Shown here piece after piece: positions 4,769-4,819 of a stretch of DNA of 64,000 nt. Positions within the stretch are counted from its first letter, which is position 1, and each line of letters starts with the position of its first letter. The notes beneath the pieces were generated by a model, which worked only from the letters and a program-made list of their open reading frames with translations, searched no databases and had not been told where the DNA came from. Position numbers and translations under genes: made by a program. This stretch comes from an uncultured Verrucomicrobiales bacterium (lineage in GTDB: Bacteria > Verrucomicrobiota > Verrucomicrobiia > Verrucomicrobiales > Akkermansiaceae): the NCBI GenBank assembly GCA_949373085.1, contig CASICJ010000004.1, positions 1-64,000 on the forward strand. The letters are read 5' to 3'.

Positions 4769-4819
4769 AGTACTCTGCGTTGATACCACTGCTAAGCAGT
4801 GGTATCAACGCAGAGTACT
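4769..4819. other. SMART primer inverted dimer (chimeric junction)
   Basis: Two 25-base arms are perfect reverse complements around a single central A at 4794. The right half reads AAGCAGTGGTATCAACGCAG followed by AGTACT. This is the SMART/template-switch amplification primer used in cDNA and low-input libraries. No biological element has this sequence. A truncated alphaproteobacterial yebC lies on the left and a truncated rpoC of another phylum on the right, so this is the seam of a chimeric molecule or assembly join. Confidence 0.97.

Follow-up and report, generated by a model that had tools for sequence, protein, structure and literature searches.

Why should a truncated yebC of alphaproteobacterial character be followed, after a 51-base inverted repeat, by a verrucomicrobial rpoC that starts in mid-gene? 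The question arises near the start of contig C4 of a metagenome-assembled genome (MAG) of an uncultured Verrucomicrobiales bacterium. The window, that is, the whole stretch of 64,000 nucleotides that was analysed, has the following features around the repeat.

1 to 4768, forward strand: segment that GC content, tetranucleotides and DNA matches mark as foreign, apparently Rhodobacterales-like alphaproteobacterial; genes in order are the end of an mgtE-like gene, 5-formyltetrahydrofolate cyclo-ligase, a Bcr/CflA-like MFS transporter, a TIGR00282 metallophosphoesterase, a DMT-like transporter and truncated yebC
4321 to 4768, forward strand: yebC, truncated to its 5' part of about 149 codons (TIGR01033 profile positions 1-151 of 238)
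4769 to 4793, reverse strand: left adapter arm, reverse-complementary to the 26-mer and lacking one base at the centre
4794 to 4819, forward strand: right adapter arm, the full 26-mer AAGCAGTGGTATCAACGCAGAGTACT; the same 26-mer is given in the available text of PMC12613986
4820 to 6672, forward strand: 3' part of rpoC, covering model positions 740-1146; its frame is broken near 5043

The repeat reads AGTACTCTGCGTTGATACCACTGCT and then AAGCAGTGGTATCAACGCAGAGTACT. The sequence-only reading had placed it exactly, with its 51 bases. It is self-complementary at 50 of 51 positions, its centre base being unable to pair with itself. A 23-mer of this sequence, with up to three mismatches allowed, matched twice in the window, and two matches were obtained in none of 100 shuffles. 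The arms lie head-to-head so that the adapter 5' ends meet, and the T at the insert boundary is present on both (the right arm is complete at 26 bases, the left arm has 25 of them). We take the 26-mer to be the adapter of an ultra-low-input gDNA amplification kit.

The right flank shows what the natural neighbour of rpoC is. The rpoC model is 1147 positions long and its coverage in the window begins only at position 740. The window's own assembly (G000; 72 contigs, 3.41 Mb, 81.1% complete) contains a second rpoC piece on contig C26, which covers model positions 2-1045 and reaches the end of that contig. The alignment of C26 with window positions 4820-6250 has 1431 columns, 1429 of them identical; it opens immediately after the last adapter base and extends to the C26 end. 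Leftward of the equivalent of 4820, the rpoC frame of C26 stays open, with 1253 codons in the part examined, and upstream of it lies a 1303-codon frame that is rpoB-like by eye. Therefore, in the natural genome base 4820 of the window is preceded by C26, and the alphaproteobacterial segment does not belong there. The two differences are a one-base length change in a run of C near 5043 (the frame is open in C26 but broken in the window at this point) and a substitution near 5787. The in-frame 538-aa part of rpoC matched all nine searched genomes of the window's family, order or class (53-76% identity) and six of seven MAGs from records titled FRAM: one titled Verrucomicrobiae (60%), one titled Opitutaceae (53%) and four of other phyla (43-59%, in pieces). 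No rpoC match was found in G294, a FRAM alphaproteobacterial MAG defined via record L011, which is titled Alphaproteobacteria; rpoC may simply be missing from that MAG.

Two other genes in the window were noted. The reverse strand at 9255-14768 encodes a UvrA-like protein of 1837 aa, which is of double length and apparently consists of two UvrA units in tandem; it also matches the NCBIfam excinuclease A model PRK00635 (1809 positions) below its cut-off. An arylsulfatase-like protein of 549 aa is encoded at 6820-8469, also on the reverse strand, and matches arylsulfatase and choline-sulfatase models below their cut-offs.

The left flank differs from the rest of the window in composition. The GC content of 1-4768 is 0.548 compared with 0.489 for the rest (range of chunks 0.458-0.515), and its tetranucleotide distance is 0.0473 compared with 0.0168 +/- 0.0017 (maximum 0.0207) for 46 overlapping chunks of the same size from the rest of the window. 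In a DNA search of 289 genomes from the class of G294 (E <= 0.001), it had matches in 243; no near relative of the source was found in this sample, the best identity of any piece being 81%. The YebC fragment is 92%, 91% and 87% identical to the full-length YebC of genomes G318 (246 aa), G450 (250 aa) and G548 (249 aa), and only 61% identical to that of G294, while none of the 95 other genomes in a 96-genome sample of the window's own phylum exceeded 60%. In the plasmid collection, the fragment was 79.9% identical to four Paracoccus records and the metallophosphoesterase 71.7-72.8% identical to five. These matches and the taxonomy line of one of the records suggest a Rhodobacterales-like source, the plasmid collection being biased and not a taxonomic survey. 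In G548, the yebC, metallophosphoesterase and cyclo-ligase region has the same order on one strand, with no room for an MFS gene between the last two. The mgtE gene (3' end only) and the DMT-like transporter were named by eye from translations and the other families from profile matches. The DMT-like transporter has a frame change, also seen by eye, near 3720-3845; together with the rpoC frame break, it would fit a low read depth.

Neither a second copy of 1-4768 nor the remaining part of yebC was found in the window's own assembly. The only other yebC match there is a complete, different gene on C27, which is 45% identical to the window fragment over residues 13-141. This gene (C27:4204-4905, reverse strand) compares with 51-54% identity from residue 1 in the ten family relatives, all of one genus, of the 96-genome sample, and it may be a second paralogue.

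The sequence-only reading had described a chimeric join of two phyla, located exactly where yebC stops and rpoC starts in mid-gene. Both points stand: the TIGR01033 match spans 4321-4770, running two bases into the adapter, and the rpoC part starts at 4820; C26 continues rpoC, and the left flank is alphaproteobacterial by DNA and YebC comparisons. The tetranucleotide comparison that it had proposed separated the two sides, and its warning that the contig misleads for synteny, binning and transfer inference is borne out by the continuity of C26 and the foreign left flank. Its remark that neither gene has its other half is true within the window, but the missing part of rpoC is on C26. The junction is thus confirmed as a laboratory artefact, and the apparent neighbours yebC and rpoC were never adjacent in nature.

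The assembly contains a second adapter dimer at C49:39555-39607 (L131 9556-9608), whose centre is one base longer than the usual form. GC content is 0.595 to its right (10.4 kb examined) and 0.505 to its left (21.6 kb examined). The tetranucleotide distance of the right side is 0.0474 compared with a maximum of 0.0162 in five chunks, and with a 4,768-base piece it is 0.0401 compared with 0.0198 in 15 chunks. An alpha-amylase family gene is apparently cut at the dimer, since its profile match begins at position 58 at protein residue 2. No contig overlapping the break, as C26 does at the first junction, was found in the assembly. By its gene order, the DNA to the right of the dimer may be cyanobacterial. 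The identity of its prfB was below 60% in all 124 plasmid-collection records with a match, too low to point to a source. A glutathione synthetase to the right of the dimer scores above the curated family cut-off and is the only one to do so in 60 genomes of the window's family; 39 other family genomes have matches below it, the best being nearly full length (G600, 227 bits compared with a cut-off of 299). Thus, the C49 junction probably gives the MAG a foreign glutathione synthetase.

The same adapter is present in public collections. GTDB r220 comprises one genome per species for 84,980 species, and scans of it may omit records of the window's own genome. The exact 25-mer occurs there in 10 stretches of nine genomes, and all of the records are titled FRAM. 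Among other genomes sampled from the window's phylum, one of 287 has the 25-mer, and it is a FRAM genome already counted. Nine of the 10 stretches contain head-to-head dimers. L014 (3574-3598) is the sole single-arm stretch; a second arm may have disappeared when the project used Illumina reads to correct its HiFi reads. With the window and C49, there are 12 junctions, and the nearest contig end is 9 to 11,298 bases away, a distance of the order of one HiFi read. The product of the contig-end probabilities is 2e-7, with a 12 kb limit chosen after the distances were known and five of the 12 contigs shorter than 60 kb and adding little. The flanks of the GTDB junctions were compared by GC content alone. 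Contrasts are large at L010 (0.30 and 0.66), L005 (0.38 and 0.59), L014 (0.34 and 0.52), L007 (0.29 and 0.43) and L006 (0.30 and 0.40), and small (0.03-0.05) at L008, L009 and L012; in L011 and L013 one flank is shorter than 50 bases in the stretch examined. The 12 junctions provide 22 arms, and GTAC is followed by T in 20 of these, the exceptions being one arm each of L006 and L007. The left arm of the window was missed by the exact 25-mer and is hence outside this panel; it carries the T.

In IMG/VR, 116 stretches (L015-L130) were found and T follows GTAC in 116 of their 118 arms, the next base being mixed (C 38, G 34, A 28, T 18). Single arms are at contig base 1 in 112 stretches, at the last base in one and at base 3 in one; the remaining two are an internal dimer (L036) and a head-to-tail pair near a contig end (L041). 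The 112 stretches open with untrimmed adapter and so their first ~26 bases are non-viral. In L041 (9164-9214), the two adapter copies are head to tail, unlike the head-to-head dimer. The untrimmed single arms at the first or last contig base are the unligated building block of the dimer.

Several papers bear on the adapter and the protocol. PMC12613986, in its available text, regards the same 26-mer as contaminating adapter in a PacBio HiFi library and removes it with lima and duplicates with pbmarkdup, and the word "ultra-low" does not occur there; the available texts of PMC11809032 and PMC12424358 apply lima and pbmarkdup against ultra-low PCR adapters and duplicates. As far as the text of PMC11344823 is available, the first steps are A-tailing, overhang adapter ligation and PCR under two conditions; after that, the products are repaired and A-tailed again and overhang adapters are ligated once more. 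Names matching the titles of the public records occur in the available texts of three Fram Strait papers, PMC8254474 (FRAM18), PMC10504371 (EGC 2016-17) and PMC10710508 (stations S10 and S26; depths SRF and BML), all with ultra-low PacBio libraries and metaFlye assembly, as in PMC11790911 from the same programme. The FRAM18 project also used ultra-low Illumina libraries, according to the same portion of its paper, and FRAM18 MAGs need not all be PacBio. The word "adapter" is absent from the main text of PMC10504371, PMC10710508 and PMC11790911 and occurs once in PMC8254474, on Illumina read trimming. The available text of these four papers does not mention PacBio read trimming, which is no proof that trimming was omitted. 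Because of the boundary T, the lack of GGG or poly-T and the protocol in papers matching the public carriers, the oligo can most probably be identified as the adapter used for gDNA amplification in PacBio ultra-low-input libraries, and we infer the same protocol for the window's own library.

The origin of the junction is therefore best explained, with a probability of about 0.97, by two adapter-ended PCR products of an ultra-low-input library, derived from unrelated marine bacteria, that were ligated end to end. Community DNA fragments would have been A-tailed, ligated to a T-overhang amplification adapter and amplified by PCR into products ending in AAGCAGTGGTATCAACGCAGAGTACT. During the later ligation of sequencing adapters, a Rhodobacterales-like product would have been joined end to end with a verrucomicrobial product, and the meeting of the two adapter 5' ends would have created the palindrome. 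The chimeric molecule would then have been sequenced, with its rpoC part overlapping a genuine verrucomicrobial contig and its foreign part hanging out as a new end. The assembler would have retained it at the beginning of C4, and C26, the true neighbour, would have remained apart from C4 despite the overlap. We infer that the join was carried by one or a few reads. In this scheme AAGCAGTGGTATCAACGCAGAGTACT and the overlap with C26 are seen in the sequence, the protocol steps come from the papers, and the 26-mer is presumably the kit adapter. The boundary T, the head-to-head arms and flanks from different templates, as expected of such a chimera, are all found at the junction. A-tailed ends should not be ligated to one another, so that, given the second A-tailing in the protocol, the ligation needs ends that escaped tailing. 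The dimer centre is CTAAG in the window, CTTTAAG in C49 and CTTAAG in the other nine of 11 dimers; the commonest form is as expected from a blunt join, and ragged or partly tailed ends would give the variation of one base. Against this explanation, the available text of PMC11809032 gives 0.81% as the highest proportion of chimeric alignments and judges chimeric reads to be no more frequent than in unamplified libraries.

It is very unlikely that the assembler, with no ligase involved, joined two reads each ending in untrimmed adapter. Untrimmed adapter is indeed common at contig ends among the IMG/VR stretches, but a right insert end of ...CTGCTT and a left start of AAGCAG... do not dovetail, and by this reasoning an overlap would leave one arm instead of a head-to-head pair; moreover, long-read assemblers use overlaps far beyond 26 bases. 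We reject an overlap join because of this end geometry.

Even less probable is the carry-over of a SMART cDNA template-switch oligo from an RNA library, that is, a true SMART primer dimer, as the sequence-only reading had named it. The name was right in that the core is that of the SMART primer, and the 26-mer occurs in 196 papers, which, among the matches listed, are mostly transcriptome studies by title or abstract. However, the arms continue with the boundary T and then mixed bases; the GGG or poly-T beside the primer and the cDNA insert of a SMART dimer are absent, and the matching public projects, in their available texts, are metagenomic DNA libraries whose protocol fits. The term "primer dimer" also needs correcting, because primer dimers usually join 3' ends and here 5' ends abut, as in ligated adapter-ended PCR products. 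We reject a cDNA origin because of the boundary bases.

By far the least probable is a natural palindromic element, such as a terminator or transposon end, next to a yebC segment gained by horizontal transfer: a near-perfect inverted repeat does separate DNA of two phyla, but the uninterrupted rpoC on C26 of the same assembly and the identity of the sequence with a laboratory oligo (PMC12613986, available text) lead us to reject a natural palindrome, terminator or mobile-element end, the exact 25-mer is confined to FRAM records in the GTDB collection, and the 51 bases have no megablast match in E. coli, phage and plasmid records (a weak point, as a 28-base exact word was set against a 26-base arm).

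The end-to-end ligation of PCR products leaves the junction at 4769-4819 without biological function and of low biological interest; it matters for database quality. Public reference genomes quite likely contain a recognisable class of adapter chimeras, with false gene content, that stems from ultra-low-input HiFi metagenomes. Here, this class comprises 12 junctions in 10 genomes; none is farther than 11.3 kb from a contig end, and at least one joins two phyla. No report of adapter chimeras in metagenomes was found in the literature among the matches listed ("hifi" also matches unrelated uses) or in the available texts of PMC11809032, PMC12004614 and PMC12424358, and the word "adapter" does not occur in that of PMC12254263. 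The 25-mer could be used as a flag for chimeric ends in reference genomes, and breaking contigs at internal dimers would do away with spurious synteny, transfer and gene presence. In the window's own assembly, breaking at the dimer would reveal C26 and C4 as neighbours, and readers of the unbroken MAG would credit it with a glutathione synthetase that is probably not its own.

Three known systems can be compared with the junction. PacBio ultra-low-input adapter contamination shares the 26-mer (PMC12613986, available text), the boundary T and public carriers whose sample names match the protocol papers; there the adapter is removed with lima, whereas here it is internal and doubled. The SMART or Smart-seq template-switch primer shares the core, and many such papers contain the 26-mer among the matches listed, but the window adapter has genomic flanks on both sides and no GGG or poly-T beside it. 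Ligation chimeras (insert concatemers) are known from long-read libraries. They resemble the junction in that two inserts are joined end to end with adapters back to back; unlike them, the case of the window persisted into a MAG contig and left C4 and C26 overlapping over 1431 alignment columns.
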